From: Collinsella tanakaei
GTDB lineage: Bacteria; Actinomycetota; Coriobacteriia; Coriobacteriales; Coriobacteriaceae
Direction: 5' to 3'
Assembly: GCF_030373545.1 (NCBI RefSeq)
Contig: NZ_JAUDCO010000001.1
Location: 1-64,000 of the forward strand
DNA: 64,000 nucleotides
In this document: one piece after another, positions 13,804 through 30,265 of the stretch
Layout of the letters: every line of letters starts with the position of its first letter
Numbering within the stretch: the stretch's first letter is position 1
Made by a program: the position numbers and the translations under genes
The notes under the pieces: generated by a model
Database searches by the model: none
What the model was told of the DNA's origin: nothing
The model's input: the letters and a program-made list of their open reading frames with translations, nothing else

Positions 13804-13834
13804 CGCGACCAGCCTCTGCCCGCACCAAAGCGGA

Positions 13835-13857
13835 TGAAACGAACCCGTCCCCAACCG
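13835..13857. repeat. Family B dispersed repeat inside the BREX operon
   Basis: GAAACGAACCCGTCCCC plus AACC is the reverse complement of a word at 39310-39332. It lies in the 78-bp gap between brxB and brxC. Its presence suggests the repeat family is active or was captured within this host lineage. Confidence 0.55.
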
Positions 13858-13881
13858 ACTGCCCAACGAAAGGAACACGAG

Positions 13882-16800
13882 ATGCAGATCCGCGACATGT
13901 TCGAGCGCGATATCGACCGCGACATCAACGGCGTCATCAAGATCGACCAAGCCGACGAGCAGGTCATCGAGCAGGAGCTCGCGGAATACGTCGTCACGCG
14001 TGAGCTGCGCGGACACTTCTCCACGTTCTTCGACGCCTACGAGCGCGCCATCGACGAGCCGACGGGCAAGATCGGCGTCTGGATCTCGGGTTTCTTCGGA
14101 TCCGGTAAGTCGCACTTCCTCAAGATGCTCTCGTATCTGCTGTCCAATCGCGAGGCGGGCGGCAAGCACGCGCTCGACTACATCGAGCCGCGCTTCGAGG
14201 ATCCCATGATCGCCGCCAAGGCACGCCGCGCCGCGGGCATCCCCACCGAGACCATCCTGTTCAACATCGGCAGCAAGAGCTCGGACCGCAACGACGCCTC
14301 GGCGGTCATCCGCACCTTCTATCGCGTGTTCTACGAAAACCAAGGCTTCTACGGCGCGAGCCCCAAGCTGGCACGCCTCGAGGCGCTCATCGACGCCGAA
14401 GGCCTCACCGACGCCTTCCGTCAGGCGTACGAGCAGGCAAGCGGCCACCCCTGGCTAGAATGGCGCAAGACCTACCAGTCCAAATCCGCCCCGGTCATCG
14501 AGGCCCTCGTGGCATGCGGCTTCCAGACCCGCGAGGAGGCCGAGCGCTGGTACGCCAGCGACGACCTCGACATCTCGGCCGACACCTTTACCGACGAGGT
14601 TCGCGACTATGTGGAGCGCCGCGCCACCGAGTGCGGCGGGCAGTTCCGCCTGCTATTCATGGTGGACGAGGTGAGCCAGTACGTAGGCGAGGACACCGAC
14701 CGCATGAACGACCTGCAGAACATCGTGGAAGGACTCGGCACCAAGTGCGCCGGCCGTGTATGGGTCGTCGTGACCGGCCAGGAGGCGATCGACGAGATCA
14801 CCACCGTCGCGGGCAGCGATTTTTCCAAAATCCAAGGCCGCTTTAACACGCGCCTGTCGCTGTCGAGCTCCGATGCCAACGAGGTCATCAAGCGCCGCGT
14901 GCTGTCCAAGACGCCCGACGCCACCCAGCTGCTCGAGCTGCAGTACGGGCAGGACGAGACCGTGCTGCGAAACCTCTTTACCTTCGGCGACGCCAAGGCC
15001 GACCTCACGGGCTACCGTAACGCAATCGACTTCGCGCAGACCTTCCCGTTTGTGAACTACCAGTTCACGCTGCTGCAAAACGTCATGAACGCCTTACGTA
15101 ACCAGGGCCATTCCGGCAAGCACCTGTCGAGCGGCGAGCGCTCCATGCTCTCAGGCTTCCAGGAGGCGGCGCAAGCCGTCGAAACGCTGGACGAGCATGC
15201 CCTCGTGCCGTTCTGGCGTTTCTACGATGCGACGGAATCGTTCTTGGAGCACTACCACCGCCAGGTCATCAACCGCGCCGCGCGTCAGGCGGAGGCCGGG
15301 CAAAACCTCGAGGACTACGACGTCCACGTGCTCAAGCTGCTGTTCCTCATCCGTTGGGTCGACCGCGACGTTGCCGCGACGATCGACAACATCGTGACCC
15401 TCATGACCGACGATGTGCGCCAGAACCGCCTGGAACTCCGCGAGCAGGTACAGGCTTCGCTCGACCGCCTGCTCAAGGAGAGCTTCATCACGCGCAACGG
15501 CGACCGCTACCAGTTCCTGACCGATGACGAGCAGGAGATCGCCAGCCAGATCGCCCGCACGCATGTGGATAGCGAGACCGTCACCAAGAAGGCGGCGGAC
15601 ATCGTGTTCAAGGATATCTTCGACACGCCCAAGCTCACCGTCGGCGTCAACCAGTTCCCCGTGGAGGAGTACCTGGACCAGATGCTCGTGGGCGCCCCCG
15701 GCGGCTTGACCCTACGCGTTATCGCCGGCATGGACGGTAGCGAACCGCCCACCCACGAGGAGCTTATCTTGCAGTCGAGCCGCAGCGAGGCCATCGTCGT
15801 GCTGTGCCCGGAGGTCGACTACTACAACCAGCTCATGGAGGCCGCGCGCATCGAAAAGTACGTCTCGACCGTAGTGACGGCCAACCTCGAGCCCAACCAG
15901 CGCGACATCGTGCGCAGCAAGCAGCAGGAAAAGACGCGCCTGGAAAAGGAAACGAGCCGCCTCATCGAGGAGGCCGTTCGCCGTGGCGAGCTGTACGTGC
16001 AGGGCAACGCCGTCACGCCGACAAAGACCTCGTCGGCCAAAAAGCGCATCGAGGAGGTGCTGGCGCGCCTGGTGGACACGGTCTACCCCAAGCTCTCGTA
16101 TATCGACCGGAACTACACGGACGACGCGAGCATCAAGCGCATCCTCAACGGCGCCGAACAGGCCCTGCCCGGTCAGCAGCCCAACGCCCGAGCCATCGAG
16201 GAACTCGAGCGCAAGCTCAAGACCGAGGCTGCGCGCCATCGCACCGTGACCATGGGCGACATCCAGCGCCAGTACCAGGCGGCCCCGTACGGCTGGCGCG
16301 AGGCGGACATTGCCGCCGTGGCGGCCGAGCTGCTGGCAAGCCACCGCGCCAAGCTCACGTACGCCGGCAAGACCGTGGACCTGCAGGATTCCAAGTGCGT
16401 GAACTACCTGCGCATGCGCAGCATGATCGACAAGGTGCAGATCGAGATGCGCCGCACCACGAGCGACGCCGAGCGCGCGACCGCCCGCCGCACCATCGAA
16501 GATTTGTGCCGCGTCCACGATCTGCCGGTCGACGAGGAAGGCCTGGCACGACGCATCCGCGAGGAGCTGCAGGAGCGCCGCGACGGCCTGCAGCGCCTGC
16601 TCGACGTGGAATACCGGCGCAACCGCAACTACCCCGGCTACGGCACGGTGGCAGACACGGTCGCGATGCTCGACGAGCTGTTGAAGGTCGATCCCGATCC
16701 TGCGGAGCTGCTCGGCGCCATCGTGCACCGCGAGGACGACCTGCTCGATGCGGCAGAGGATCTGGAGGACATCGACGGCTTCTTCCCCGACCGACAGCGC

Positions 16801-17514
16801 ATCTTTGACAGCGCGACCGAGCTGCTCAAGCAGGTCGGCACCGACCGCGAGGATCTGGAGACGGATGCCGAGGCCGCTGCAGCCCTTACCACCATCGAGG
16901 GCATTCTCGCGGACAAGAACATCTACCGGCGAATCTCCGAGTTGCCGTCCGCGGTCCAGCAGGTCAGGACCGTACGCGACCGCATGCTCAAGGCCAAGCG
17001 TGTCGACCTGCTCGAGCAGATCGACACGACGATCGACGAGCTCGCTGCATACGCGCAGGAGCGCGACGTCAAGCTGTCAGACATCGAGAAGACCCGCCTG
17101 ACCCGTCGCGACGCCGCAAATAACGCCGCGACGCTCACGGAACTCGATGCGCTCAGAACACGCCTGGAAAAGGACCAACGCCGTCTGAGTGACGAGATCG
17201 ACCGCGAATACGACCGTATCAATCGTCCACGGCCTGCGACGACAGGCGTGACGGTGACGACCGAGCACGGCAAGACGCAGACTTCGCGTCCTGACGACGG
17301 GTATCCCGACGACGCAGTCACGCCGCCAACCGAAAATCCGCCCACCAAACAAACTCCGCCTGTCCCCGCACCCAAGATCGCCACCATCGAGCGCACGCGG
17401 ATATTCAAGCCGCGTCGTCTGCGCAGCGAGCAGGAGATCGACGAGTACCTCGAGACCGCACGTAAACAGCTGCTCAACGCCCTTGCGGGCAACGACTCCG
17501 TCAAGCTTAACTAA
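13882..17514 (+). CDS. brxC: BrxC, BREX ATPase (DUF6079-type P-loop protein)
   Basis: This 1210-aa protein is the large ATPase of type 1 BREX (PglY counterpart in type 2). The Walker A motif GFFGSGKS spans residues 70-77. A Walker B-like LLFMVDEVSQ lies near residue 262. The N-terminal ATPase region is followed by long helical segments with probable coiled coil (about 870-1130), then a Pro/Thr-rich stretch near 1140-1165. The start at 13882 has AAAGGA at 13869-13874; an in-frame start at 13834 would translate through the family B repeat and is rejected. Length is normal for the family. Confidence 0.93.
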   Translation: MQIRDMFERDIDRDINGVIKIDQADEQVIEQELAEYVVTRELRGHFSTFFDAYERAIDEPTGKIGVWISGFFGSGKSHFLKMLSYLLSNREAGGKHALDYIEPRFEDPMIAAKARRAAGIPTETILFNIGSKSSDRNDASAVIRTFYRVFYENQGFYGASPKLARLEALIDAEGLTDAFRQAYEQASGHPWLEWRKTYQSKSAPVIEALVACGFQTREEAERWYASDDLDISADTFTDEVRDYVERRATECGGQFRLLFMVDEVSQYVGEDTDRMNDLQNIVEGLGTKCAGRVWVVVTGQEAIDEITTVAGSDFSKIQGRFNTRLSLSSSDANEVIKRRVLSKTPDATQLLELQYGQDETVLRNLFTFGDAKADLTGYRNAIDFAQTFPFVNYQFTLLQNVMNALRNQGHSGKHLSSGERSMLSGFQEAAQAVETLDEHALVPFWRFYDATESFLEHYHRQVINRAARQAEAGQNLEDYDVHVLKLLFLIRWVDRDVAATIDNIVTLMTDDVRQNRLELREQVQASLDRLLKESFITRNGDRYQFLTDDEQEIASQIARTHVDSETVTKKAADIVFKDIFDTPKLTVGVNQFPVEEYLDQMLVGAPGGLTLRVIAGMDGSEPPTHEELILQSSRSEAIVVLCPEVDYYNQLMEAARIEKYVSTVVTANLEPNQRDIVRSKQQEKTRLEKETSRLIEEAVRRGELYVQGNAVTPTKTSSAKKRIEEVLARLVDTVYPKLSYIDRNYTDDASIKRILNGAEQALPGQQPNARAIEELERKLKTEAARHRTVTMGDIQRQYQAAPYGWREADIAAVAAELLASHRAKLTYAGKTVDLQDSKCVNYLRMRSMIDKVQIEMRRTTSDAERATARRTIEDLCRVHDLPVDEEGLARRIREELQERRDGLQRLLDVEYRRNRNYPGYGTVADTVAMLDELLKVDPDPAELLGAIVHREDDLLDAAEDLEDIDGFFPDRQRIFDSATELLKQVGTDREDLETDAEAAAALTTIEGILADKNIYRRISELPSAVQQVRTVRDRMLKAKRVDLLEQIDTTIDELAAYAQERDVKLSDIEKTRLTRRDAANNAATLTELDALRTRLEKDQRRLSDEIDREYDRINRPRPATTGVTVTTEHGKTQTSRPDDGYPDDAVTPPTENPPTKQTPPVPAPKIATIERTRIFKPRRLRSEQEIDEYLETARKQLLNALAGNDSVKLN

Positions 17515-17523
17515 GGAGCGCAG

Positions 17524-20058
17524 ATGGACACCAAGGTTCTTGAGAAGTTCTGCCCATGGGCGCGCGATGAGCTGGTCGACGCTGTCCGCAACCGCTGCAT
17601 CGCCTGCGGTCTGGACGGGGTCGGCCGCGCCAGCGCCCCGCGCGGTTCGCGCATCGTCAACAACGTGGTGCTCACAGACGATGAGCTTACACAACGCGAC
17701 AACCTCATCGCCCTCATCGACGAGCTGGGCTACGAGGCCTTCCTTGAGCGCGAGGCATACACGTGGTTCAATCGCTTTGCCGGCATCAGGTACATGGAGC
17801 TCCACGGCTACCTGCCCAGCCGCGTACGCATGTTCTCGGCAGTCGACGGCTCATTTGACCCTGAGTGCCTGCGCGCCGTAGGTGAGCTCGACCTGCCCGA
17901 ACTCGACCGCGATCGCGCGCTCGACCTTGCCGCCGAGGGCAAAGATGCCGAGCTGTTCCGCATAATCCTTATCGCCCAGTGCAACCAGCTAGCCGATGCT
18001 CTTCCCGCCGTGTTTGACCACGTGGACGATACCGACGCCCTCATGCTGCCGGACGGCCTGCTCATCCCGGGCGAACACAACGTGCTGCACCATTTGGTGG
18101 CCGACATCCCCGAGCGGGCGTGGGACGACGTCGAGGCGCTGGGCTGGATGTACCAATTCTACAACGCCGACCTCAAGGCCGACTTCTTCAAGTCCAAGCG
18201 CAAGGCCGCACCGGAGGACATCGCGCCGGCAACCCAGCTCTTCACGCCCGACTGGATCGTGCGCTACATGGTGGACAATTCGCTCGGTCGCCTGTGGATG
18301 CTGAACTTCCCCGATAGCCGCCTGCGCGAACGGGCCAGCGCCGAGAACCCCGCTGATCGGCTCATGGAGTATTACATCGAACCCGACCAGGAGCACGAGG
18401 ACTTCATTCGCATCTCCGGCCCCGAGGACATCACGTTCTGCGACCCGGCGTGCGGATCGGGTCATATCCTCGTGTACGCGTTCAAGATGCTCATGGCAAT
18501 GTACGAGGAGCGCGGCTACCGCGAGCGCGAGATTCCCGAACTCATCTTGACCAAGAATCTCTCCGGCATGGAGATCGACGAGCGCGCCGCGCAGATCGCC
18601 CAGCTGGCGCTGGCCCTGTGCGCTCGCGAGCACGATCGGCGCTTCTTCGGGCGCGGGATCGTGGCCGACGTGCGCACGCTGTCGAACATCGAGCTCAGCG
18701 CCGACGAGCTGCCCGAGACAAGCGCGCTCGTGAGTCACAAGCATACCGGCCTGCTGGAAAGCCTGACGCACCTGGGCGAGATCGGCAGCCTGCTTGCCAT
18801 CGATGAAGGCGAACTGGGATGTCTGCGAGACGACGCTAAGGTCTGCGCACACGTGGCGACAGAAACCGGCGACGTGCTTCTTGCCAACAACGCAAAAAGG
18901 CTCGCTTGCGCGCAGAGCGTCTGCGAGACACTTTCCCGCCACTTCGACGTAGTCGTCGCCAACCCGCCCTACATGGGCAGCAGCAGCTTCAACCCGTTCA
19001 TGAGCAAGTGGATGAAGAAACGGTACCCCGACAGCTGCAAGGATCTGTGCACGGCGTTTATCGAACGCGGCTATTCACTTGCACACGACAACGGCTACGC
19101 CGCCATGGTCACGATGCAGTCGTGGATGTTCCTCGGCAGCTTCGAGAAGATGCGCAAGCGCATCATCGACGAGAAGACGATCCTCACCATGGCGCACCTG
19201 GGGCCGCGCGCGTTCGACGCCATCGGCGGTGAGGTCGTCTCCGTCACGGCAGACGTCCTCTTCAACGGCAAAACTCCGGTAAAGGGTGCCTATGCGCGAC
19301 TGGTTGACATCAACGGCAGCGAACCCAAGCGCGAGAAGCTCCTCGAAGCCATCCACAACCCCACCTGCGGCTGGTTCTACCGAGCCGACGCCACCACCTT
19401 CCACGACATCCCTGGCTCCCCCATCGCCTATTGGGCGAGCGAAGCTGCGATGCAAGTATTCAAAAGCCTTGAACCTCTCAAAAAAATAGCCCCCACAAGA
19501 AAAGGCATGTTTACCGGAAACAATGATTATTTCCTTAAGCGGTGGTTTGAGATAAGCCATTGCAAAATCGGGACTAGCTTCAAGCCCTATTGCAAGGGCG
19601 GCGCTTTCCGCAGGTGGTACGGGAATCGCGACTATGTTATTCGGTGGCATTCAAATGGCAAAGAAATCCGTGAATCACGGCGAGCGGGCAATGTAAATGT
19701 GGCCGACTACTTTAAGCCATGCATCTTTTGGTCTCTAGTTACTTCCGGCGACATTAGTTTTCGTATTATCGACACCAATGACTTTGTAATGGGAGATGCT
19801 GGTCCTGCTTGCTATCCCAGAGGCGAAGATTCACTCGTTTTATTAGGGCTGCTTAATTCCAGCTCCATACGATCTCTTTCAAAAATGATTAATCCTACAC
19901 TGAACTGGAGCAGTGGAGTTGTTGGATCCTTTCCCGTGCCGCATCTGGGGCACGCCAAGTTTTATAACGAGCTCGTATCCCGATGCATTCAGATTGCTCG
20001 ATCCGACTGGGACTCTCAAGAAACCTCTTGGGACTTCAAGCGCAATCCGCTGGTGTGA
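17524..20058 (+). CDS. pglX: PglX N-terminal part: BREX adenine methyltransferase and target recognition region
   Basis: This 844-aa protein is the catalytic part of the BREX N6-adenine methyltransferase that marks host DNA. SAM motif I is FCDPACGSGH (residues 305-314) and motif IV is NPPY (480-483). The target recognition region follows. The protein ends at SWDFKRNPLV, a point that lies in mid-protein in full-length PglX (about 1200 aa). The missing part is encoded separately at 25532-26506. Base composition becomes clearly AT-richer from about 19440 (residue 640) on, which points to a swapped specificity region. AAGGAG precedes the start. It follows brxC by 9 bp. Confidence 0.92.
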   Translation: MDTKVLEKFCPWARDELVDAVRNRCIACGLDGVGRASAPRGSRIVNNVVLTDDELTQRDNLIALIDELGYEAFLEREAYTWFNRFAGIRYMELHGYLPSRVRMFSAVDGSFDPECLRAVGELDLPELDRDRALDLAAEGKDAELFRIILIAQCNQLADALPAVFDHVDDTDALMLPDGLLIPGEHNVLHHLVADIPERAWDDVEALGWMYQFYNADLKADFFKSKRKAAPEDIAPATQLFTPDWIVRYMVDNSLGRLWMLNFPDSRLRERASAENPADRLMEYYIEPDQEHEDFIRISGPEDITFCDPACGSGHILVYAFKMLMAMYEERGYREREIPELILTKNLSGMEIDERAAQIAQLALALCAREHDRRFFGRGIVADVRTLSNIELSADELPETSALVSHKHTGLLESLTHLGEIGSLLAIDEGELGCLRDDAKVCAHVATETGDVLLANNAKRLACAQSVCETLSRHFDVVVANPPYMGSSSFNPFMSKWMKKRYPDSCKDLCTAFIERGYSLAHDNGYAAMVTMQSWMFLGSFEKMRKRIIDEKTILTMAHLGPRAFDAIGGEVVSVTADVLFNGKTPVKGAYARLVDINGSEPKREKLLEAIHNPTCGWFYRADATTFHDIPGSPIAYWASEAAMQVFKSLEPLKKIAPTRKGMFTGNNDYFLKRWFEISHCKIGTSFKPYCKGGAFRRWYGNRDYVIRWHSNGKEIRESRRAGNVNVADYFKPCIFWSLVTSGDISFRIIDTNDFVMGDAGPACYPRGEDSLVLLGLLNSSSIRSLSKMINPTLNWSSGVVGSFPVPHLGHAKFYNELVSRCIQIARSDWDSQETSWDFKRNPLV

Positions 20059-20063
20059 TTACT

Positions 20064-20627
20064 ATGTCTAATAAATGGTCTTTTAAATGCAGTGTAAAAC
20101 TGTCCGGAGAAACAAATAGTAGCTTGCAAAAGATCGTCCAATTCTACCTCTGGGAAACACCTGTTCCGAACACATCAGAAAAGGGCGTGCCGTTTGCCTT
20201 GATGGGGATTGAAAAATCTAAGTACAAAACGCTTCAGGCTGAAATGCGAAAACATAGCGGGTTTCCCGCGGCCGATGGCCATGACTGGAAAAAGACAACC
20301 ATTAAATCCATTGAAAAAGATTTGAAGAGCCTTGATCGTCTGGATAGATACGATTGTTCATTTGAATTCGCCATTCATACAGTAAAAAACGGGCTGGGCA
20401 AAACAGAAGCTCTTTTTTATTTCATCAGAAACGCCTTTGCTCATGGGGGATTTCGTATCTCAACCTACAAAGGAGAACACTACTTTGTCCTAGAAAACCG
20501 AAAGAATGGCTCAATTAGAGGACGAGCAATTTTAAAAGAATCAACACTGCTCAGCTGGGCAAAATTGATTAACGATCTACGCAGCAAAAAGAAGAAACTC
20601 GTACCATCAAAGAGCGGTAAGCGGTAA
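20064..20627 (+). CDS. HEPN-like protein with R-x4-H motif, cargo inside pglX
   Basis: This 187-aa basic protein belongs to no family I can name. Residues 116-130 (ALFYFIRNAFAHGGF) carry RNAFAH (R122, H127), the R-x4-6-H motif typical of HEPN domains, many of which are RNases in defence or toxin systems. The C-terminus is Lys-rich (LRSKKKKL). It starts 5 bp after the stop of the N-terminal pglX half and has no good Shine-Dalgarno, so it is probably coupled to pglX translation. It is AT-rich compared with brxA-brxC. A terminator follows at 20734. Calling it an RNase is inference from one motif. Confidence 0.7.
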   Translation: MSNKWSFKCSVKLSGETNSSLQKIVQFYLWETPVPNTSEKGVPFALMGIEKSKYKTLQAEMRKHSGFPAADGHDWKKTTIKSIEKDLKSLDRLDRYDCSFEFAIHTVKNGLGKTEALFYFIRNAFAHGGFRISTYKGEHYFVLENRKNGSIRGRAILKESTLLSWAKLINDLRSKKKKLVPSKSGKR

Positions 20628-21049
20628 TTATGATGCCTTATTTTGCCGATGCCATCTTCCATCTCAACCTTGATTGTCACGGTGATTTGATCTGCAAGTT
20701 GAATGAACGGAGAAGCCCGAAAGCAAGTCGCAGAAAAGGCGAGTTGCGCGCTTCGTCGCCTTTTCCACTAGGGGGTTGTAGCGCGTTGCCCCGTACCGGG
20801 GGGATCCCCCAGCCCTTGGAAGCCCGCCCTTACGGTCAGACCATGCCAGCACATCTGCGCGTACGGCATCTCGACCTTACTACCCGTCGGCAGCAAGCCC
20901 GTAAAGTCAGTGTACAAAAAACTGAATTGCACCCTGCAATAGGAGCCATTCTTTTCATCCCCATACGTTTGAGTTCTTATCCCGAACGCGAGCATGAGCA
21001 CCAGAAATGGGCAAGCGATGGATTTATCCAACGTGTCTCTACACTCCGC
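20628..21049. other. Intergenic region with bidirectional terminator
   Basis: The 422-bp gap separates the HEPN-like gene from the convergent DUF3800 gene. Besides the terminator at 20734-20764, it has a GC-rich block near 20765-20900 with open frames on the minus strand (for example 20768-21031, 87 codons) that lack a ribosome binding site and recognisable motifs. I see no supportable gene. It may be a relic of an earlier insertion. Confidence 0.5.
20734..20764. terminator. Bidirectional rho-independent terminator within the BREX locus
   Basis: AAAAGGCGA (20734-20742) pairs perfectly with TCGCCTTTT (20756-20764). The run of T on the plus strand and of A (T on the minus strand) makes it functional in both directions. 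It should end the brxA-to-HEPN transcript and also the leftward DUF3800 transcript. Confidence 0.8.
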
Positions 21050-21724
21050 TTATTCCATCCGGAGTTTGAGAAGTTCTTTGTATGGTCCCTTTTTGAATTT
21101 CTGCCAACCTCCAAAGAACTTTTCGTATGTAGGCGTAAGCCGATGATCACGATACTTTCTTGCAGCGAGCTCGAGAGTGCAAATGTAGTCGGCAACCTGA
21201 GAGAGCCTGTATTCAGAAGCCGTTGCGGATCGGTATACGACTGCACTCTTAAAGAAAACAAGGTCTACCGCTTTATGCAGGGCATCTGTAATGGAGCCCT
21301 GTCCGCCATCGTAATAAATCTTGATTTCGTCAAATGCCTGAAAACTGCTGAGATTGTCAAAGAAGAACTCTACGAACCGTTTTCGCATAGCGCGAGACAT
21401 GTCGTCTTTCGATCCAAACTCTTTCATTCTGAATTCAAACAACTTATAGCGAATAGGCAGATGTCTCACGAATACTCTAAATGCATTCAACAACCTACTT
21501 CGGGTTTCGAGCGCAAGTCCCTCATACTCGCAATGCCCGGTCATGAGGGGCGTTGCATGGAAAGGGATATTCGGCATATCTCGAGCTATCAAACTCTGCT
21601 CATAAAGGCCGATCGATTCTCGGACGCTCGCATCTTGGTTGTGGAATACCAGAGTAAGCAGGTAATAGGGCTCTCGCAAGTCATCGCTGCCGGATTCATC
21701 GACAAAAATACTCAGCTCTGCCAT
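21050..21724 (-). CDS. DUF3800 protein
   Basis: This 224-aa protein belongs to DUF3800, a family with an RNase H-like fold prediction that is common in phage-defence and mobile regions. The N-terminal FVDESG (residues 7-12), a central YYDGG, and the C-terminal QVADYICTLE are the hallmark acidic motifs. The start at 21724 is set by TTGGAG upstream and the hallmark beginning right after it. It is the only minus-strand gene in the BREX locus. It has its own promoter (21801-21830) and a leader hairpin (21733-21774). Nuclease activity is plausible, not shown. Confidence 0.8.
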   Translation of the reverse strand: MAELSIFVDESGSDDLREPYYLLTLVFHNQDASVRESIGLYEQSLIARDMPNIPFHATPLMTGHCEYEGLALETRSRLLNAFRVFVRHLPIRYKLFEFRMKEFGSKDDMSRAMRKRFVEFFFDNLSSFQAFDEIKIYYDGGQGSITDALHKAVDLVFFKSAVVYRSATASEYRLSQVADYICTLELAARKYRDHRLTPTYEKFFGGWQKFKKGPYKELLKLRME

Positions 21725-21732
21725 ATAAACCA

Positions 21733-21774
21733 CTCCAAGAAAAAAGCCGGGGAAAACGTCCCCGGCACTTGGAG
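21733..21774 (-). promoter_or_regulatory. Terminator-shaped leader hairpin that can hide the DUF3800 ribosome binding site
   Basis: In the minus-strand transcript the order is CUCCAAG (21774-21768), GCCGGGG (21766-21760), loop, CCCCGGC (21752-21746), U6, then CUUGGAG (21739-21733), which contains the Shine-Dalgarno of DUF3800. The GC stem plus U6 looks like an intrinsic terminator. CUCCAAG is the exact complement of the Shine-Dalgarno segment. Transcription or translation of DUF3800 should thus be off unless the fold is disturbed. Confidence 0.65.
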
Positions 21775-21800
21775 GCCTCTCCGAAAAGAGAACCATCTAC

Positions 21801-21830
21801 TTTATACCACACGCCGGTTCGGCAATTCAA
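21801..21830 (-). promoter_or_regulatory. Promoter for DUF3800
   Basis: On the minus strand TTGAAT (21830-21825) and TATAAA (21806-21801) are separated by 18 bp. The predicted transcript begins near 21795 and carries a ~70-nt leader with the hairpin at 21733-21774. The promoter faces away from, and lies next to, the LexA-like boxes. Confidence 0.65.
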
Positions 21831-21840
21831 TCATACCAAA

Positions 21841-21887
21841 ATACGAACACATGTTCTCCATGATAGATACGAACATATGTTCTCCAT
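21841..21887. promoter_or_regulatory. Two LexA/SOS-box-like palindromes
   Basis: CGAACACATGTTCT (21844-21857) and CGAACATATGTTCT (21870-21883) each match 13 of 14 positions of the Gram-positive LexA consensus CGAACRNRYGTTYC. They lie within 21-bp direct repeats that differ at one base and start 26 bp apart. They end 22 bp before the start of the 1205-aa gene. The longer repeat leaves open that a dedicated repressor, not LexA, is the binder. Confidence 0.7.
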
Positions 21888-21905
21888 ACAGAAAGGCGGC
21901 ATAGA

Positions 21906-24900
21906 ATGGCAAGCTCGTACTCGAACATCGAAGCGCAGGAGATCATCGCGTCTGCGAACGCGGCCGCAGTCGCTATCGGCGGGATCATTCGCGAGCGCCT
22001 GGAGTATGAACTGGAGATAGCAGATCTCTATAAAAAGCTGCTCGACCAGGGCGGCAATGAGCTTCCCAGGTGCATTTCGCTCGTACGCACGGGTCCGGGC
22101 AAGTACCGCACGCCCGCGGCGGGGAAGAAGGGCGGCACCGCTTCGAACCTCTACCTCGCGGCGACATCCGGTACGGATGCGGTGATCGAGACGCGCTCCG
22201 GAACATATAATGTCCAGGAATGCTATAAGCGGGTGCGCGCAGCGGCCGGGATCGACGAGTTTGACGACGCCTTCGAAGACCTCATCTTTGCGGGGTACAA
22301 GCGTTGGCTTCACGAAGAGATTCTCGACAAGCCCCTATCCGAGTGGAAGGCCTTGAAAGCCACCATTGAGCGCGACGCAAAGGCAGCCGAGCCCGCGCTG
22401 CAGGGCGGGCTGTCGCGCCTCTTTATGAACGCCCAGGCCAAGCAGGAGGCATTCGACGCCCTTGACGAGCTGAAGAGCATCAACGTGGCGGGCATCGTCT
22501 TCGATTTGGAGTTCTGGCATGAGAAATCAACGCAGACGTACTTCATCAAAGAGGACGTTCTCTATAGTTTCCGGCACAGCGAAACCACGCGGAACGACGT
22601 CCTGCGCTGCTTGCATGCGCAGCTCGGGGATTTCGAGCTTAACGGCGGCATTCGCAGGCCGTTCTACTCGGATGCGGTGCAGCAGGTGCTGGACGAGCTC
22701 GAAGGCATCTCCGGCGTGCGGCGCGGCGTCTCTGCAGCCCAGCAGGCTGTGGCGGACTCCATTCCCGCAGCGATAGAGGAGTTGAAGGAGAGCGACGTTC
22801 TCGCGAAGCTCGCGCAGCACCCCATCGAGGAGCTGGCGGAGGCAAAGACGGGTGCGCAGATTAAGAAGCTGCGGGACGCGGGTGTCCACACGCTTGCAGA
22901 TCTGTATGAGCGTCTCAACGCGCCGGAACGCGGTGAGCTGCCCGGCGTGGGTGCGAAGACCCGCAGCGCCATCGAGAAGTATTTGGATCCGATCGTCGCT
23001 GAAGCGCGCAGCTGCTGGAGCCTGCACCTTTCCGCTCGCGAGCAGGGCGAGGCCGCCACGAGGCTCGTCCGCACCGTGGGGGCGCATATCGAGCTGGGCA
23101 AGCTTCTCGATAAGGCTCAGGAGGCGCTGGCGGGGCAAGACGCGTTGTCTGCACAGCAGACGGACGACCTGCTGTTCGCGACCGATGATATCGACTGGCT
23201 GCTTACCGACGACGATCACGTGCAAGCGGCCTCCGGCGCCATGGACGCCGCGCGCGCATACCTCGACACCAAGGACGGCGCGTGGCTGCTTTCGCTGTCG
23301 CGCGGCTCCAAAATCAAGAAGCTCGAAGACGAGCTGGTTTCCTCGAGCAAGGCCTGGAAAGATTTCGAGAAGAGGCCAGACGCGTTCTATGAGGTTATCG
23401 AGCAACTTGCTCCCGAGGCTCTGGTGCAGCCGGAGCAAGAGCCGGCGAGCGTGGGGGCGGGGCAGCCGGAAGCTGCTCCGGCGGTAGAGGCGGAGCGTGC
23501 AAAATCCAAGCGTAATACCGCAGAATCCGTCGACACCCGTGAGCCCCATGAAGCTCCCCGTCCGGTTGCGCAGCAGAAGGCCGGCGCAGACCTTCTCGAG
23601 CAGACGAGGACGTTCTACCAGAAGTTCGAAGGCCTCACCATGATGTTTCCGCCCGCGGAGGACGCCCCGGCCTTCAACGCGAAATCGAAGTACTCCGTTC
23701 GCGCGGACGCACCGCGCGCCCAGGGCAGCACCTTCTCCCTCGCCATTCCCGACGGTTGGGTAAGCGAGAAAGATACCAGCGGCCGCGCATTCGTCCTGGT
23801 GCCGGAGGAGCATGCTGGCGAGGGGGTGGATTCGAACATCGCGATCCTGTACGGCGATGCGCCGGTTCCCGACGATTACGCCTCTAATATGCAGAAAATC
23901 GGCGTGGATCCAGCCCTATGGTCGCTCAATTATGAAGCGCGAAGCTGCCGTTCCGACTTTACTCTTGAGATGCACGAGGTCCAGGCCCGAAATTGTCGTT
24001 GTGCCGTTGTGCAGGTTCCAACAGCCGATGAGGAGTGCTCTGAGTTCTACATCTACCCCTACTCGCTCATCGGGCAGGATTACGCCCGCGTCACGTTCTA
24101 TGACCCGGGAGACGTTACGTACGAGCAGGCTCGAACCTTTGTTGACAATTTGGCGCGTACGGTAGAGGCTAGCGGATCCACGGTGCCAACCTGTCTCGAT
24201 CAGCTGGAGGAGAGATTCCTTGCCCGCTCGAATGACTTTTCATTTTCGTATCGTGAAGTCTTCATGACCGTAATGGATCAACTAGCTTACTTAAGGAATT
24301 CGGTATTGGGCGCCGGAGCGCGTTTCTGCGAGGCTCTCAATCCCGCGGCGGGAAGTCGGGCGCGGAACATCTCTGGAATAATCGCTCTGTCGCAGTTTTT
24401 TGACGCCTGCGTTCCCATCGCCGTTCGCTTCGTCGATGTTATAGAAGAATGGGCGCGCGTTGACCGTTCGAAAGAGATTTTCAACCGATTTACCTGCAAA
24501 AGCATGCTGGAAGAAATCGGCGACAAGTTTATTATCTCCAGCGATATGTTCTACGACTCCGCCCTCTCCGCCGAAGAGCTCGAAAAGCTGTGCGTTCCCT
24601 CACCGAGGCAGCGAGGACTACTTGAGAGGATTTCGCATGCCCTTGTTTTGCTTGGCTTCGACGAATACGGCACAGAAAAGAAAAACGAAACAGTGATTGA
24701 AGTTGATGCAAGCGGAATCATTCGGGACGCTATCAACCACTTCGCGAGCCAGAGTGATTCAGAGCTTCAAAGTCACGTTGTGACCGAGGACGGCGACCAA
24801 GCAGAGGGGCTCGAAGGAAGGCTCGAGCCTGCTGAACAACAGTCTTCAATGAGCGCGCGCGCTCGAAAGATTCTTGCGGGTCAAATCGCCCCCGATCAGT

Positions 24901-25523
24901 ACGATTCGCCCACGGTAATATGTAACCTTTTGGCTCAAAGAACGTTCTTCTTCGATTCGGAAGACATTGCGTGGGACGGCAGGCACCATACGATTACCAA
25001 CGTCAACGTTAACGCTTCCCAAGCTGAAAACCTCAGCGACGATGCACTCAACACCTTGATGAACGAAACGGCCAATACCTTCGGGGTTGTGCTAACAGAA
25101 ATCGAGAAGGACGAATTGCTGTTTGTTCCACGCAGTAGAATTGCGAGCGGAATCGAGCAGGCGCTTCCCGAAGGCGACCTTACCGGCATCACACTCTGCT
25201 ACCTCATCGGATGTCTTGGCGCATTCTCTTGGAGGGGCACAGAAAACTGCTATCAGGTTTATTTCGACCCACGACTTGAGAAAGGTATACCGCAGTTCTT
25301 CAGCCTCGTGGCACGACTGATCTGGGATATTCGTGACCAATTTCTCATGTCAGAAGATTCGTTCGACATCATGTTCTTCAGGACGCGCAATTTTGATGCG
25401 GACGCCTTCTTGGGTGATGTTGATGAGCCCGTAATCGGCGTCCAAGACTGCCCGAACTTGCTCAATGTACGCGAACAGCCGAGCGTTGATCTTTCAGATC
25501 AAAGCGCAAAAACAAACTGCTAG
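21906..25523 (+). CDS. Unknown 1205-aa protein with helix-hairpin-helix, behind SOS-like boxes
   Basis: I do not recognise the family. A helix-hairpin-helix-like segment spans about residues 322-361 (LRDAGVHTLADL and LPGVGAKTRSAIEKYL), a non-specific DNA-binding motif seen in repair proteins. A Glu/Ala/Pro-rich linker lies near 505-560. A beta-rich segment starts near 608 (STFSLAIPDGW). The C-terminal third has no motif I can name, and no Walker, nuclease or membrane signature was seen. The first ~760 codons are GC-rich like the host; the remainder is AT-richer, so the gene may be a mosaic. AGAAAGG at 21890-21896 precedes the start. Its stop codon overlaps the Shine-Dalgarno of the C-terminal pglX half. 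Confidence 0.75.
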   Translation: MASSYSNIEAQEIIASANAAAVAIGGIIRERLEYELEIADLYKKLLDQGGNELPRCISLVRTGPGKYRTPAAGKKGGTASNLYLAATSGTDAVIETRSGTYNVQECYKRVRAAAGIDEFDDAFEDLIFAGYKRWLHEEILDKPLSEWKALKATIERDAKAAEPALQGGLSRLFMNAQAKQEAFDALDELKSINVAGIVFDLEFWHEKSTQTYFIKEDVLYSFRHSETTRNDVLRCLHAQLGDFELNGGIRRPFYSDAVQQVLDELEGISGVRRGVSAAQQAVADSIPAAIEELKESDVLAKLAQHPIEELAEAKTGAQIKKLRDAGVHTLADLYERLNAPERGELPGVGAKTRSAIEKYLDPIVAEARSCWSLHLSAREQGEAATRLVRTVGAHIELGKLLDKAQEALAGQDALSAQQTDDLLFATDDIDWLLTDDDHVQAASGAMDAARAYLDTKDGAWLLSLSRGSKIKKLEDELVSSSKAWKDFEKRPDAFYEVIEQLAPEALVQPEQEPASVGAGQPEAAPAVEAERAKSKRNTAESVDTREPHEAPRPVAQQKAGADLLEQTRTFYQKFEGLTMMFPPAEDAPAFNAKSKYSVRADAPRAQGSTFSLAIPDGWVSEKDTSGRAFVLVPEEHAGEGVDSNIAILYGDAPVPDDYASNMQKIGVDPALWSLNYEARSCRSDFTLEMHEVQARNCRCAVVQVPTADEECSEFYIYPYSLIGQDYARVTFYDPGDVTYEQARTFVDNLARTVEASGSTVPTCLDQLEERFLARSNDFSFSYREVFMTVMDQLAYLRNSVLGAGARFCEALNPAAGSRARNISGIIALSQFFDACVPIAVRFVDVIEEWARVDRSKEIFNRFTCKSMLEEIGDKFIISSDMFYDSALSAEELEKLCVPSPRQRGLLERISHALVLLGFDEYGTEKKNETVIEVDASGIIRDAINHFASQSDSELQSHVVTEDGDQAEGLEGRLEPAEQQSSMSARARKILAGQIAPDQYDSPTVICNLLAQRTFFFDSEDIAWDGRHHTITNVNVNASQAENLSDDALNTLMNETANTFGVVLTEIEKDELLFVPRSRIASGIEQALPEGDLTGITLCYLIGCLGAFSWRGTENCYQVYFDPRLEKGIPQFFSLVARLIWDIRDQFLMSEDSFDIMFFRTRNFDADAFLGDVDEPVIGVQDCPNLLNVREQPSVDLSDQSAKTNC

Positions 25524-25531
25524 GAGAACCC

Positions 25532-26506
25532 ATGGCAACCCTCATCCGTGACAAGTACGAGGCGCACAAGGCCGAGGTCAATGCGCGCTTCGACCAGCTT
25601 AAAGCCAACGAAGAAGAGCTCAATCGCATCTTTGCGGAGATCTACAACATGGTGGGCGAGGTACCCATCGAGGTCGAGGACAAGTACGTCTCGGTCGCGC
25701 GGATCTTCGACACGGCCGACGAGATCCCCGAGAGCTTCAAAGGCAACAACTACGTCCGCACCATGCGCGACGAGATCGTCTCGCTCATCTCCTATGCCGT
25801 GGGCTGCATGTTCGGCCGCTACTCACTCGATGTGGACGGCCTAGTGCTCGCCAACCAGGGCGACACCGTGAACGAATACCTCGCCAAAATGCCCGACCCC
25901 GCGCACGTGAGCTTCATGCCCGTGGCAGACAACGTCCTGCCCATCACGGACGACACCTACTTCGAAAACGACATCTGCACGCTCTTCGAGCGCTTCCTCG
26001 TGGCGGCCTACGGTGCGGAGACGCTCGAGGAGAACCTGCGCTTCGTAGCCGATGCCCTCTCCCCCGCCGCCAAGGGCACCCCGCGCGAGACCGTGCGCGC
26101 GTACTTCCAGAAGGAGTTCTTCGCCGACCACTGCAAGACGTACAAAAAGCGCCCCATCTACTGGCTGCTGGACGCCGGCAAGAAGGGCAGCTTCCGCGCC
26201 CTCATCTACATGCACCGCCACCAACCCGACCTCATGGCGCGCATCCGCACGGACTACGTGCTGCCGCTGCAGCAGCGCTACGCGAGCATGCTCGACAACA
26301 TCCAAAACGAGCTGGAAACCGTCGAGGGACGCCGCCGCGCCGCCCTCGTCAAGGAGCAGAAGCGCGTCACCGACCAGGCCGCCGAGCTCACGAAGTTCGA
26401 GGAGAAGATCCATCGCCTCGCCGACCAGATGATCGCCATCGACCTCGACGACGGCGTGAAGGTCAACTACCCGAAATTCGGCGACGTGCTCGCGAAAATC
26501 AAGTAA
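25532..26506 (+). CDS. pglX: PglX C-terminal part, separated from the N-terminal part
   Basis: This 324-aa frame corresponds to the C-terminal end of type 1 PglX: FDQLKANEEELNRIF, SYAVGCMFGRYSLD, HCKTYKKRPIYWLLDAGK and IDLDDGVKVNYPKF are family hallmarks. In other BREX loci this segment is continuous with the methyltransferase. Here it has its own start with AGGAG at 25522-25526 overlapping the stop of the 1205-aa gene. The break falls between the SWDFKRNPLV end of the N-half and the helical C-domain, with nothing obviously lost. The two parts may assemble as a split enzyme, or the break may inactivate it. Confidence 0.92.
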   Translation: MATLIRDKYEAHKAEVNARFDQLKANEEELNRIFAEIYNMVGEVPIEVEDKYVSVARIFDTADEIPESFKGNNYVRTMRDEIVSLISYAVGCMFGRYSLDVDGLVLANQGDTVNEYLAKMPDPAHVSFMPVADNVLPITDDTYFENDICTLFERFLVAAYGAETLEENLRFVADALSPAAKGTPRETVRAYFQKEFFADHCKTYKKRPIYWLLDAGKKGSFRALIYMHRHQPDLMARIRTDYVLPLQQRYASMLDNIQNELETVEGRRRAALVKEQKRVTDQAAELTKFEEKIHRLADQMIAIDLDDGVKVNYPKFGDVLAKIK

Positions 26507-26516
26507 GGGGAACGAC

Positions 26517-29500
26517 ATGACACCCGACGATCAGATTCGCAGCAACCTTTTCCATTTCATCTCTTCACGAATCGACGAGATCTCTCGGCAGCACGAAGAG
26601 TCCCCGACGCTGCTACTTCTTAAGGGCTTCACGTCTTTCCAAATCAGCGCGGCACTTAAGGCGAACCATATTTCCCCGAGCGTTTCATCGCTGCTGAATG
26701 GGCAGGACGAGCTCGACGTTTCACGCATCGAGGAAAACAGAAAGGATCTTATCGTCTCCCTCTTGACTCTTGACCAACCATTAATCCTTCTATATGAGCA
26801 GGTCATTCCTATTCGCGCCTCATTGGGAGACGTGTTCTCTGGTGATATCGTCATCATTAAGAACAACCTATTTCCTGATGGTTCTCCGATCCCAAGCGCC
26901 GTCTCTCAACAAGAACTCTCGCATCTTGCAGAAGCAATAGAAGATTCTAAAACCGACGATGATTGCGTCCTCGGCAAGTTCTATGCAAGCGCAACTCCCT
27001 GCAAAGACAGCTGGCTCGTTACGCCGATTGAGCTCGATCGGTCAGCCATCCAATATGTCGAGAAACCCTTATTCCCGTCATCCGCCTTCGAGCCTTCGCG
27101 CACCCACCCATCATACGAGCAGATAAAAGCTGACAGTAACGACCTCATCGGTCTCTGCCTCGAACTCTCCTGCGGGGTTATTCCAAATGCATCAATTGTA
27201 GTTTCCGGAGGTACTGAACTGGCAACGGCAACCGCTTCTGTTCTGAAGTGCATTGCTAGCATTGCTTTCCATGTAAAAGCCTCCATTGAATTCATCAGCG
27301 AAACTGATATCCAACCGACGGGCGACGGCGAACGCCTGCTTTCCCTGCTCAGAAAATACTGGGGAGCCGACGCGCGATACCGAAAGCTGCAAATGTATGA
27401 AAATCCGGACATTGATAATAAGATGCGCGAATTCTCTCAGGGTGAAATCTCAGACTTCGCCGTGGAGCAAGCAGAGCGAGCGCTTAAAGGCTCTAATGAT
27501 TATCGAGACATGTTCATCACAGCACCTACCGGTGCAGGCAAATCCCTGCTCTTCCAACTGCCCGCGCTATATCTCGCAGAAGCTCACCATGCCATCACCC
27601 TGGTAATCGAGCCGCTTAAAGCCCTTATGCGCGACCAGGTGAAATCATTGCGATCTCGTGGGGTAACCAACGTGGTTGCCATCAATTCTGACCTCACTTA
27701 CGGCGAGCGCCAGTCTACCTACGAGAGAATCCGCAATGGGTCCGCCTCGATTGTCTATCTATCTCCCGAGCTGCTCCTCGGCTCTTCGCTCGACGACATC
27801 CTTGGTGGCAGACGCTTGGCGCTCGTGGTTATAGATGAGGTCCATACTGTCACCTCGTGGGGAAAGGACTTCCGACCTGATTACTGGTATTTGGGTTCCT
27901 ACCTCGCCAAAATAAGAAAACAAGGTATGAATTTTCCCATCTTCTGCATGACGGCAACAGCAGTCTATGGCGGCAAGGACGATATGGTTCTTCAAACCGT
28001 CCGGGATCTCGAACTTATCTCGCCGTATATCCTGCTCGGAAATCCTCGACGCGACGATATCTCGTTCGATATACGACGCGTCCTCAAGAGCAGATACGTC
28101 GGCCGCATCGATGAAGTTAAAACCGAGCTTGCCGTTGAGGCGACAAGACGGTTTGTAGAGCAAGACTCTCACTCGATTATCTATTGTCCATACAGATCGC
28201 ATGTTGAAGCAGTTACTGAAGCAGCTACAGCAATCTTTCCAGGAAGTAGCAAGGTTCTCGGATTCCATGGTGGAATGGATAAAGAGTACAAAAAGATGGT
28301 CGAGACTGCATTCAAGCAACGCAACTGCTTGGTTCTTGTCAGCACCAAAGCTTTTGGCATGGGCGTAGACGTCGACGACATTACCGATGTTTACCACTAT
28401 GCACCGACAGGAAATCTCTGCGATTACGTCCAGGAAATCGGTCGCGGCGCCCGAAAAACTTCTCTTAAGGCCACTGCGTCTATCGACTTCTTCCATTCCG
28501 ATTCATCCTACGCCAATCAGCTCTACCATCTTTCTCGATTCTACGACTGGCAGCTTCGCGACATCATGGAGAAGCTATACGAGGTCTACTCGAGCAAACC
28601 TCGAGACAAACGCTCTCAAAATCTTCTAGTGTCGCCTAACTCGTTCTCATATCTTTTCCCCGATGAAAAGGATGATACGGCGAGGGTAAATCGAACAAAG
28701 TCAGCCCTCATGATGATTTCAAAAGACCTGGAAGAGCGTTACGGATTCCCCGTACTCATCGTACGACCCAAGCCAACGTTCACAAAATGCTTCATCTGCA
28801 TTGAGCGAGACATAGAGCATACCTTCCTCTCTAGATACGGTCTATATGTCCGTCGGATAAGCGAGGGAAAGAAACGTATCGAAAACCATCCAGGACAACA
28901 GAGCGTACACATTGCCGATGCTGGAGCTATTTTCGAACTCGAAGCCGCAAAGATGTGGGAGGAGCAATTCCCCCAATATACGTTTGCAGATTTCAAACGA
29001 CGCCTATTCACGGGCGAACTACTAGACTTTGTCGGAGAGGGTTCAATCTCATCTCGCGTAAAGCTCGAAATCACGTATAAAGAAAGCGAAGAGCGAACAG
29101 AAGCGTTCTTCTCGACCTATGCGCACGCACTCGATTCAACGTTCAAGAAGCTTGCACGTGAGGGTTTCTTCGATACCAAACAGTTCAAATCGATCTTTGA
29201 ACAAGAACTCGGGACGAACGCTCCGGCCCTTCCTCATGCTGAGCTTCTCTTAAGGCTCTTTATTCATCCAACAGACCACACGTTCAATGGCAAAAGCCGT
29301 TCTTCCATGAAAGTCGTTTGCAAGCGTTCCTCTGGCAAGCAGACCGGTATGATTCAAACGACAACGTATAAGCTGAAATACGGCGACGTCTTGAATCTCG
29401 AAGCTGATTTGATGAAGCGATTCTCGGCAGTTAGACCAAATTCAAATAAAGCATTCTCTCGTTATATCAATGCGCGAAGCGCAGGAAGGATTTATGAAAC

Positions 29501-30215
29501 CGCCGAACTTCTCGAAGTGCTAGACCTTGCGAACTATGAGGCGCACGGCGGTGACGAACCGGAAATCTTCATTCGTCTTAACGATCCCAAAAAGCTCCAT
29601 GCGCTTGCTTCCGATGATAGGTTTAAAAATCGCGTGCTACGCGAGATGACCGAACGCCACAGGTATGCCTCAGAAGTCATAACCAGATTCTTCAATAAGG
29701 AAATGACCGATGCCGCTCGTTGGGATCTCATAGAGGAATACTTTCTTGGCAACGATGAAAAAGTCGCCGAGACCCTTGGAATTGAAACTAAAAACACTGA
29801 GCCGGTAGAGACGAAAGTGAAGTACCGTGGATCTACCGAACTTTTCCTTGGCTCCACTATGGCCATCGTTGACCGAGGAACTCAGCATGAAGGACAGTTC
29901 TTCCGTCTCTGGAAAGAGCTTATGGCATCACATGCTTCAAACGTGGAATCTCAAGCGCTTAAGCAGCTGAAAGATGCAATGCGCGGCAGCGCTTATGAGC
30001 ACCCACTACTCGGAGCGAAACTCGCTCTCCAGGGTGACAGCGACCTTATCTCCCCGCTCCTCACCTGGGAGCATGCTCATGTCGCGCTCTTCGATATCGC
30101 CGGGTCGGACGATTGTGATAGGGCGGCCAAATCCGATTGGAAATGCTATCTGCTCGGCAATATGGACGTAGACCAATTGGTCGCCAACGTGCACGTCAGC
30201 TCCCTTGAACACTGA
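26517..30215 (+). CDS. RecQ-like SF2 helicase inserted in BREX, with long N- and C-terminal extensions
   Basis: This 1232-aa protein has a RecQ-type helicase core: Walker A APTGAGKS (residues 336-343), DEVH box (440-443), a RecQ-like TVTSWGKDFRPDY just after it, motif III FCMTATA, and motif VI region YVQEIGRGARK. About 315 residues precede the core and about 570 follow it; neither shows a domain I can name. No zinc-binding RecQ cysteines or HRDC were recognised. Type 1 BREX normally has no helicase. AAGGGG precedes the start, 10 bp after the C-terminal pglX half. The gene is AT-richer than pglZ and brxL, which suggests separate acquisition. Confidence 0.85.
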   Translation: MTPDDQIRSNLFHFISSRIDEISRQHEESPTLLLLKGFTSFQISAALKANHISPSVSSLLNGQDELDVSRIEENRKDLIVSLLTLDQPLILLYEQVIPIRASLGDVFSGDIVIIKNNLFPDGSPIPSAVSQQELSHLAEAIEDSKTDDDCVLGKFYASATPCKDSWLVTPIELDRSAIQYVEKPLFPSSAFEPSRTHPSYEQIKADSNDLIGLCLELSCGVIPNASIVVSGGTELATATASVLKCIASIAFHVKASIEFISETDIQPTGDGERLLSLLRKYWGADARYRKLQMYENPDIDNKMREFSQGEISDFAVEQAERALKGSNDYRDMFITAPTGAGKSLLFQLPALYLAEAHHAITLVIEPLKALMRDQVKSLRSRGVTNVVAINSDLTYGERQSTYERIRNGSASIVYLSPELLLGSSLDDILGGRRLALVVIDEVHTVTSWGKDFRPDYWYLGSYLAKIRKQGMNFPIFCMTATAVYGGKDDMVLQTVRDLELISPYILLGNPRRDDISFDIRRVLKSRYVGRIDEVKTELAVEATRRFVEQDSHSIIYCPYRSHVEAVTEAATAIFPGSSKVLGFHGGMDKEYKKMVETAFKQRNCLVLVSTKAFGMGVDVDDITDVYHYAPTGNLCDYVQEIGRGARKTSLKATASIDFFHSDSSYANQLYHLSRFYDWQLRDIMEKLYEVYSSKPRDKRSQNLLVSPNSFSYLFPDEKDDTARVNRTKSALMMISKDLEERYGFPVLIVRPKPTFTKCFICIERDIEHTFLSRYGLYVRRISEGKKRIENHPGQQSVHIADAGAIFELEAAKMWEEQFPQYTFADFKRRLFTGELLDFVGEGSISSRVKLEITYKESEERTEAFFSTYAHALDSTFKKLAREGFFDTKQFKSIFEQELGTNAPALPHAELLLRLFIHPTDHTFNGKSRSSMKVVCKRSSGKQTGMIQTTTYKLKYGDVLNLEADLMKRFSAVRPNSNKAFSRYINARSAGRIYETAELLEVLDLANYEAHGGDEPEIFIRLNDPKKLHALASDDRFKNRVLREMTERHRYASEVITRFFNKEMTDAARWDLIEEYFLGNDEKVAETLGIETKNTEPVETKVKYRGSTELFLGSTMAIVDRGTQHEGQFFRLWKELMASHASNVESQALKQLKDAMRGSAYEHPLLGAKLALQGDSDLISPLLTWEHAHVALFDIAGSDDCDRAAKSDWKCYLLGNMDVDQLVANVHVSSLEH

Positions 30216-30265
30216 CGCCGATCTCCCTACCTGACTATACCGATTCCACCTTGAGGAGCAACAAC

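Follow-up and report, generated by a model that had tools for sequence, protein, structure and literature searches.

The closest described counterparts of the locus analysed here are type 1 bacteriophage exclusion (BREX) systems, whose central enzyme PglX (BrxX) is represented by Escherichia coli BrxX (9EWZ) and Salmonella PglX (8C45). We describe a type 1 BREX locus in a 64,000-nt stretch of Collinsella tanakaei DNA (NZ_JAUDCO010000001.1, positions 1-64,000, forward strand; hereafter the window) whose PglX shares its domains, profile models and operon neighbours with these proteins but, rather than forming a single polypeptide of ~1200 residues, is specified by two genes that lie 5.5 kb apart, with other genes filling the gap. 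It also differs from the described enzymes in that its target recognition domain (TRD) and the cargo between its halves vary as separate units, and in that the C-terminal half comes first in six genomes. Our analysis suggests that PglX is very probably a functional two-polypeptide enzyme here, whose fission would have created a slot for cargo genes.

Three other described systems bear on this locus (papers are cited throughout for the portions of their text that were available). In BREX of the Lactobacillus rhamnosus GG type, a full-length 1198-aa PglX is accompanied by a partial 743-aa PglX and a site-specific integrase (PMC7513527). The likeness to such phase-variable pglX genes is that pglX is the variable part of BREX and that partial copies of the N-terminal half occur in some of the loci described below, but pglX of the window genome stands without second or partial copies: its C-domain match is limited to its own gene, and neither half has a second match in the rest of the genome. 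A precedent for a two-subunit PglX is provided by the C5 methyltransferases M.AquI and M.EcoHK31I, DNA methyltransferases naturally made of two polypeptides each (PMC3404938). These are cytosine-5 enzymes, with M.AquI cut within its variable region and motif IX set apart in M.EcoHK31I, whereas the cut here lies behind the TRD; no cargo slot is mentioned for the C5 enzymes in the available text of that paper. Lastly, HEPN and other nucleases linked to the core genes have been described as auxiliary effectors of BREX loci (PMC12839542), a likeness that extends to the presence of nucleases at BREX and not to a slot between BrxX halves, which the available text of that 2026 survey does not contain; in its main text the terms split, fission, SOS, LexA and DUF3800 do not occur. 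The literature searched, supplementary files being outside its scope, thus offers phase-variable PglX with partial copies, fused BrxX structures and BREX auxiliary effectors, and no description of a two-gene PglX was found in it, which is no proof of novelty.

The two pglX genes and the cut between them

The type 1 BREX core set (brxA, brxB, brxC, pglX, pglZ and brxL) is complete and in order at 12568-35115 of the window:

12568..13191, plus strand: brxA (PADLOC BrxA, E 2.9e-37)
13201..13803, plus strand: brxB (PADLOC BrxB, E 4.5e-51)
13834..17514, plus strand: brxC (PADLOC BrxC, E 0)
17524..20058, plus strand: pglX N half, 844 aa, with N-terminal domain, methyltransferase, TRD and conserved C-terminal tail (NF033452 model positions 1-899; E. 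coli BrxX residues 1-870)
25532..26506, plus strand: pglX C half, 324 aa, with spacer helices and C-terminal domain (NF033452 model positions 906-1209)
26517..30215, plus strand: RecQ-like helicase in the interval from the C half to pglZ (NCBIfam TIGR01389, E 8e-58, below cut-off; GC content 0.50)
30251..32896, plus strand: pglZ, type A (TIGR02687, E 2e-143; start as given by the open reading frame (ORF) tool)
32890..35115, plus strand: brxL (TIGR02653, E 1.7e-243)

An earlier note on the window, made from its letters alone, had reported pglX in two frames of 844 and 324 aa with ~5.5 kb of cargo between them. Coordinates and profiles bear this out: both frames are open, 5473 bp separate them, and the C half has the Shine-Dalgarno-like sequence of its own that the note had pointed to (CTAGGAGAACCCATG). 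The N half carries the S-adenosylmethionine and NPPY motifs (DPACGSG and ANPPYMG, read by eye) and matches Pfam Eco57I at E 6.7e-23, and the TRD, the spacer helices and the C-terminal domain are all present across the two halves, as judged by NF033452 and by comparison of a C-half model with BrxX. Taken by itself, the C half falls short of the NF033452 cut-off of 500, with a score of 355.5.

The halves are colinear with full-length type 1 PglX, and only 6-7 positions of the NCBIfam model NF033452 (BREX_1_MTaseX, 1210 positions) and the PADLOC model PDLC02521 (1174 positions) fall between them; in PDLC02521 the N half covers 1-869 and the C half 877-1170. Against E. coli BrxX, the N half reaches residue 870 and C-half residues 20-324 correspond to 891-1195. 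The TRD of that protein spans 651-837 and its C-terminal domain 838-1205 (PMC11842806). The earlier note's placement of the cut at a domain boundary therefore holds in part: it is near the border of TRD and C-terminal domain, but ~33 residues beyond the border published for E. coli BrxX. Relative to fused homologs, the cut falls between ETSWDFxxHPL and a helix that starts RFxQLKANEEELNRIF, so that the junction reads ETSWDFSTHPLTQPGEPLIKNQF in the fused homolog L057 and ETSWDFKRHPLV-stop followed by MATLIADKY in split homologs. Judged by these alignments to full-length proteins, the loss at the junction is restricted to linker residues, and no core residues are missing.

A recurrent split with a free-standing C half

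When public genomes were searched for the C half, nine loci were returned. Seven of these (L002-L008) encode it separately, with other genes in front of it; for L007 the N half lies off the retrieved stretch. The C half also found matches in 20 of 65 genomes of a family sample and in 46 of 396 genomes of a Coriobacteriia class sample, and we sorted the latter 46 by reading the loci. Twenty-five are type A (N half, cargo, C half), six are type B, with the C half before the N half (G218, G232, G298, G320, G347 and G350), and three have their halves on different contigs (G038, G235 and G352), while nine are fused, one is broken (G299) and two are not callable (G047 and G381). The split that the earlier note had proposed looking for in related genomes is thus found in 34 of 43 callable class-sample loci. 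With L047 (genome G042, present in the family sample only) the type A loci number 26. Among them, the N-half stop falls at the homologous residue in 24, and the C half starts at the homologous codon in all 26 (24 ATG, 2 GTG). Because the cut recurs at the same residue and codon across type A loci, a chance split is excluded.

Three loci outside the Coriobacteriia sample have the same cut. Two come from the phylum of a Selenomonadaceae metagenome-assembled genome, where the C half matched in 44 of 398 genomes and two of the six genomes fetched are true type A splits (L139 and L140); L141 and L142 from the same sample appeared split by frame length but break elsewhere and were counted as broken, and short weak matches such as a 288-aa frame in G1043 were left out. 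The third is L176 (MT835838.1), a human-gut scaffold filed as Bacteriophage sp. and a type A split. On this scaffold, which may be bacterial DNA, the halves are separated by three ORFs and followed by pglZ; a second human-gut scaffold filed in the same way (L177) is fused. Two further candidates were rejected as split loci, L077 being a fragment that reads through the junction and L086 beginning at a contig edge. In an Actinomycetota sample 13 of 396 genomes matched the C half, and outside the class the shortest matching frame was 614 aa. A plasmid collection yielded 269 records matching the C domain, one of them at 60-80% identity (C. aerofaciens), and among the matches listed most are annotated pglX. 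The one annotated record examined (C. aerofaciens NZ_OY725717.1) gives the name PglX to the N half and lists the C-half homolog as a hypothetical protein.

Independence of the C half as a subunit is indicated most strongly by the type B order. In these six genomes, brxC is followed by pglXC and then pglXN, an arrangement in which read-through cannot rebuild the normal chain, so the C half must act as a separate polypeptide. The two halves go together in split genomes: an N-half match with an E value no higher than 1e-40 is present in 33 of the 34 in the class sample, the remaining one (G298) retains part of an N half truncated at a contig end, and the only genome with an N half and no C match, G247, has a contig edge inside the gene. 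Relaxed selection on the C half, which the earlier note had named as a sign against a working enzyme, was looked for in close pairs of loci, and strong purifying selection was found instead, with ratios of nonsynonymous to synonymous substitution rates (dN/dS) of 0.028-0.147 in all 15 pairs. An AlphaFold2 (AF2) model of the C half alone is predicted with a mean local confidence (pLDDT) of 84.7 and a predicted template-modelling score (pTM) of 0.84. Its six PDB matches at E <= 0.001 are all BrxX or PglX (TM-scores 0.81-0.86; 0.85 against BrxX 9ewz). On the other side of the cut, the final 24 N-half residues show a mean pairwise identity of 60% across 23 loci, and we suspect that this conserved tail is a likely docking piece for the C half.

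A tree built for 35 loci (28 split, 7 fused) from N codons 1-560 together with the C domain rejects the split forms as one clade (approximately unbiased (AU) test, p 5.5e-9) and requires at least four changes between split and fused forms, with L139 and L140 grouping with fused relatives. Because of these changes, a single fission is not claimed; the alternatives are repeated cutting of the same loop and an old split followed by several re-fusions.

Two slots of exchange and their cargo

Comparison of close pairs of loci divides the region behind the methyltransferase core into two variable slots, separated by a short conserved stretch:

19321..19983, plus strand: exchange slot 1, the TRD, at about codons 600-820 (pairwise identity; GC content)
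19984..20058, plus strand: conserved N-half tail between the slots, ending in DWDSQETSWDFKRNPLV and the stop codon (identity; BLASTN islands)
20059..25531, no strand assigned: exchange slot 2, the cargo, 5473 bp (cargo variation; resumption of homology)

In 11 of 12 close pairs, protein identity is 65-97% over codons 1-560 and 34-51% over codons 600-844; the exception is L051/L053, with 90% and 95%. At the nucleotide level (BLASTN, 11 close pairs), homology running from brxC into the methyltransferase domain is lost at N codons 481-639 in nine pairs and continues up to the N stop codon in two, and five pairs have a short island of homology over the last N-half codons (54-67 bp in four, a weaker one of 190 bp in the fifth). 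In eight pairs homology returns close to the C-half start, from 26 bp ahead of it to 9 bp past it; in L051/L055 and L059/L060 the cargo is wholly or partly common, and in L046/L047 homology starts 167 bp ahead. The TRD and the cargo vary separately, since L051/L053 and L052/L055 have the TRD in common and different cargo, whereas L051/L055 have the cargo in common and different TRDs. The earlier note had pictured an insertion into pglX. That picture does not hold: related genomes carry different genes in the gap, which is the pattern of a conserved fission and not of one recent insertion. Imported slot contents would fit the GC content, which is 0.63 over N codons 1-560, 0.50 in the TRD, 0.41 in the HEPN-like gene, 0.46 in the DUF3800 gene and 0.62 in the C half; the exception is the start of the large cargo gene p1205, whose first 500 codons have a GC content of 0.62, unlike the low-GC slot contents. 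The low GC content of the RecQ-like helicase gene at 26517-30215, between the C half and pglZ, suggests that a further position for cargo might follow the C half.

The cargo of the window consists of three genes and a leader:

20064..20627, plus strand: HEPN-like gene, 187 aa (Pfam PF18736, E 9.5e-4, below cut-off)
21050..21724, minus strand: DUF3800 protein of 224 aa, transcribed away from the downstream unit (Pfam PF12686, E 9.3e-7, above cut-off; start by homology)
21745..21812, minus strand: DUF3800 leader, with a TATAAA element, a hairpin and a GC-rich hairpin with a T run
21906..25523, plus strand: large protein p1205, 1205 aa, between the LexA-type boxes described below and the C half (related genes in slots)

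The HEPN-like family is the common one, being present in 13 of the 26 type A slots, with a listed start no more than 25 bp from the N-half stop in 12 of the 13; in the window its ATG lies 5 bp past that stop. The HEPN label itself is weak, coming from sub-threshold Pfam matches and an R-x4-H motif (RNAFAH) read by eye. DUF3800 genes occur in 12 of 26 slots, on the opposite strand. Large proteins of ~900-1205 aa occur in six of 26, the window included, with a 209-aa relative in L063, and their genes end 9-105 bp before the C half in five cases and 545 bp before it in L049. For p1205, no family match above cut-off was found in Pfam, PADLOC or NCBIfam, and its structural model is poor (mean pLDDT 36). 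Its last ~200 residues recur in shorter or different proteins of L049, L063, L007, L068 and L147, which suggests a shared module.

A Pfam scan covered 20 of the 26 cargo ORFs picked: six matched above the curated cut-off, four only below it, and ten had no match at E 0.01. Matches above cut-off were SIR2_2 (L004 and L059), a Snf2-type helicase (L004), RiboL-PSP-HEPN (L053), a helix-turn-helix domain (L005) and DUF2357 (L068), and a PADLOC scan of ten cargo proteins gave weak SIR2-type matches (L002, L004 and L059) and an AAA defence candidate (L068). The cargo may have a role in defence. In the slot of L068 (3985-9070, minus strand), an AAA-type protein with a sub-threshold Pfam match stands beside the DUF2357 protein, and we presume that the two may be a McrBC-type pair.

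The DUF3800 leader of two hairpins, the second terminator-like, is shared by the window and L003, L006, L045-L047, L059-L061, L065, L066 and L076. It mostly lies directly before the DUF3800 start codon and is more distant in L065 and L066. For four of 13 predicted leader pairs, at least one sequence carries compensatory changes, with both partners altered and pairing retained. Rfam gave no match to the leader in the window or in nine further loci, with one unrelated sub-threshold match elsewhere. Its layout resembles, to our eye, that of an attenuator or a type III toxin-antitoxin system.

Readings of the split and its possible control

We consider it highly probable that PglX is a functional two-polypeptide enzyme at these loci and that the fission created the cargo slot. 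According to this view, the N half would form a first subunit with the methyltransferase, an exchangeable TRD and the conserved 24-residue tail, and the C half a second, with the spacer helices and a constant C-terminal domain. The halves would associate non-covalently at what is a loop in the fused enzyme, probably docking through the tail, and together they would methylate DNA. Fission would turn the space between them into a slot, and homologous recombination in conserved arms, one reaching from brxC to N codon ~480-640 and the others formed by the N-half tail and the C half, would replace TRD and cargo while leaving the constant parts untouched. The earlier note had favoured a working split over a wreck, and the linker-only loss, the recurrence of the split and the strong selection on the C half argue the same way. 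Several findings weigh against this interpretation. Nine of the 43 callable class loci are fused, and fused L056 nests among split Coriobacteriia, so the split is not fixed in the lineage. The N-half end deviates in two of 26 type A loci (by four additional residues in L066 and by running on in L047), and the N half of L067 is in two pieces and looks damaged. In L070 and L146 an in-frame TAG stands 32 residues before the aligned C-half end; this codon could reflect inactivation, error or recoding. G005 has an additional C-half fragment elsewhere in its genome. Finally, expression of the Salmonella C-terminal domain by itself, with the cut placed ahead of the TRD, is reported to have failed (PMC11341690).

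The earlier note also suggested that expression of the C half might act as an on/off switch for methylation and defence. At a subset of loci this idea is made concrete, in a specific and testable form, by LexA-type boxes near the C half:

21844..21857, plus strand: LexA/SOS-type box CGAACACATGTTCT, its GAAC-N4-GTTC core ending 49 bp before the next start codon
21870..21883, plus strand: LexA/SOS-type box CGAACATATGTTCT, its core ending 23 bp before the next start codon

The pattern occurs at eight places in the whole genome, six of them outside the window, with one before lexA (family match). From their sequence, we take the other genes beside outside boxes to be recA, a UmuC-like polymerase gene, ruvC, a DUF1016-like gene and a dipeptidase-like gene. 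In four relatives, where 26 places returned DNA and the genes were assigned by motifs, a box lies by lexA in three genomes, by recA in three, by ruvC in two and by umuC in one. Because the pattern precedes lexA and recA, we take it as the LexA box of this group.

In the window, LexA-type boxes of this genome stand ahead of the downstream unit p1205-pglXC-recQ-pglZ-brxL, with p1205 separating them from pglXC. It is possible, as an addition to the two-subunit reading and for box-bearing loci only, that LexA represses the unit of the C half, PglZ and BrxL. The enzyme would then be incomplete in undamaged cells, with BREX off or low, until an SOS response to phage or damage supplied the missing half. 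Several observations favour such a gate. Ahead of the window unit the boxes are two tandem copies of CGAACNNNNGTTCT, and the same distances of 49 and 23 bp recur directly before pglXC in L003, L006, L046 and L047. Exact cores are concentrated in slots with DUF3800 (eight of 12, against one of 14 without it), base shuffles predicting 0.02-0.10 per slot. Deleting brxX or brxZ leaves E. coli with neither methylation nor defence (PMC6326788), so BREX as a whole would be disabled if the downstream unit were withheld. Against it, two matches in 64 kb are no rarity (11 of 100 shuffles reach that number), fewer hits occur genome-wide than in the reversed control (10 vs 33), and the boxes are also upstream of the divergent DUF3800 gene. 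In 18 of 26 loci neither the C half nor its unit is preceded by an exact box, and a terminator scan found no plus-strand terminator-like site at 20058-21905 that could block read-through from brxC-pglXN. Moreover, switching on late would expose an unmethylated chromosome to self-attack. A sigma-70 scan returned three promoter-like sites against 6.5 in shuffles, and terminator-like sites numbered 12 against 14.1. A slightly more tentative proposal joins the gate to the slot: PglX might be a damage-gated split immune enzyme, with LexA holding back its C subunit along with PglZ and BrxL until the SOS response signals phage attack or damage and BREX is assembled, and the gap might be an evolved slot in which back-up effectors (HEPN, SIR2, and DUF3800 with its leader RNA) are swapped independently of the TRD.

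It is unlikely that the split serves mainly for TRD shuffling, with one constant C half and several TRD cassettes swapped by a recombinase. Such a function would suit L147 (G347) and L146 (G232), in which brxC-pglXC-pglXN is followed by inverted partial N copies, L147 with a tyrosine-recombinase-like gene (motif reading), and a second, partial N match is present in four of the six type B genomes (G218, G232, G347 and G350). A second N match is absent, however, from the window genome and from the type A genomes of the class sample, and shuffling accounts for at most six of 34 split genomes. Within L147 and L146 themselves, the arrangement may be a specificity shufflon served by one constant C half. 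The N half of L147, a locus from a metagenome-assembled genome (reverse strand; the same gene as L009 12406-15606), extends ~220 residues past the usual stop.

Less likely still, in our view, is an N half that forms an MmeI-like methyltransferase complete in itself, with the C half as a separable accessory for BREX docking or DNA binding whose loss would affect defence and not methylation. The N half matches the part of PglX shared with MmeI and might act without the C domain, which counts against the two-subunit reading, and the cut lies near that border. However, the halves go together in split genomes, the N half retains its conserved tail beyond the TRD, and in E. coli BrxX residues of the C-terminal domain contact DNA and a mutant of this domain alters defence (PMC11842806). 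That cargo interrupted pglX by insertion and left the C half as a decaying remnant is very improbable: cargo does lie between the halves and frames are broken in L070 and L067, but the identical position of the cut in 24 of 26 type A loci, the C-half dN/dS of 0.03-0.15, its own ribosome-binding site and the permuted order in six genomes all speak against decay.

The reading of PglX as two subunits suggests that BREX can have a central enzyme made of two proteins; in the C. aerofaciens record the second of them is not recognised. Part of the PglX C-terminal domain has been termed a region of unknown function (PMC11341690), and the natural cut would be a ready-made tool for asking what role this domain plays in BREX. 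The locus also presents a site of gene exchange inside an operon whose boundaries are visible and, where the boxes are present, may offer a concrete and testable case of SOS control over modification-based defence.

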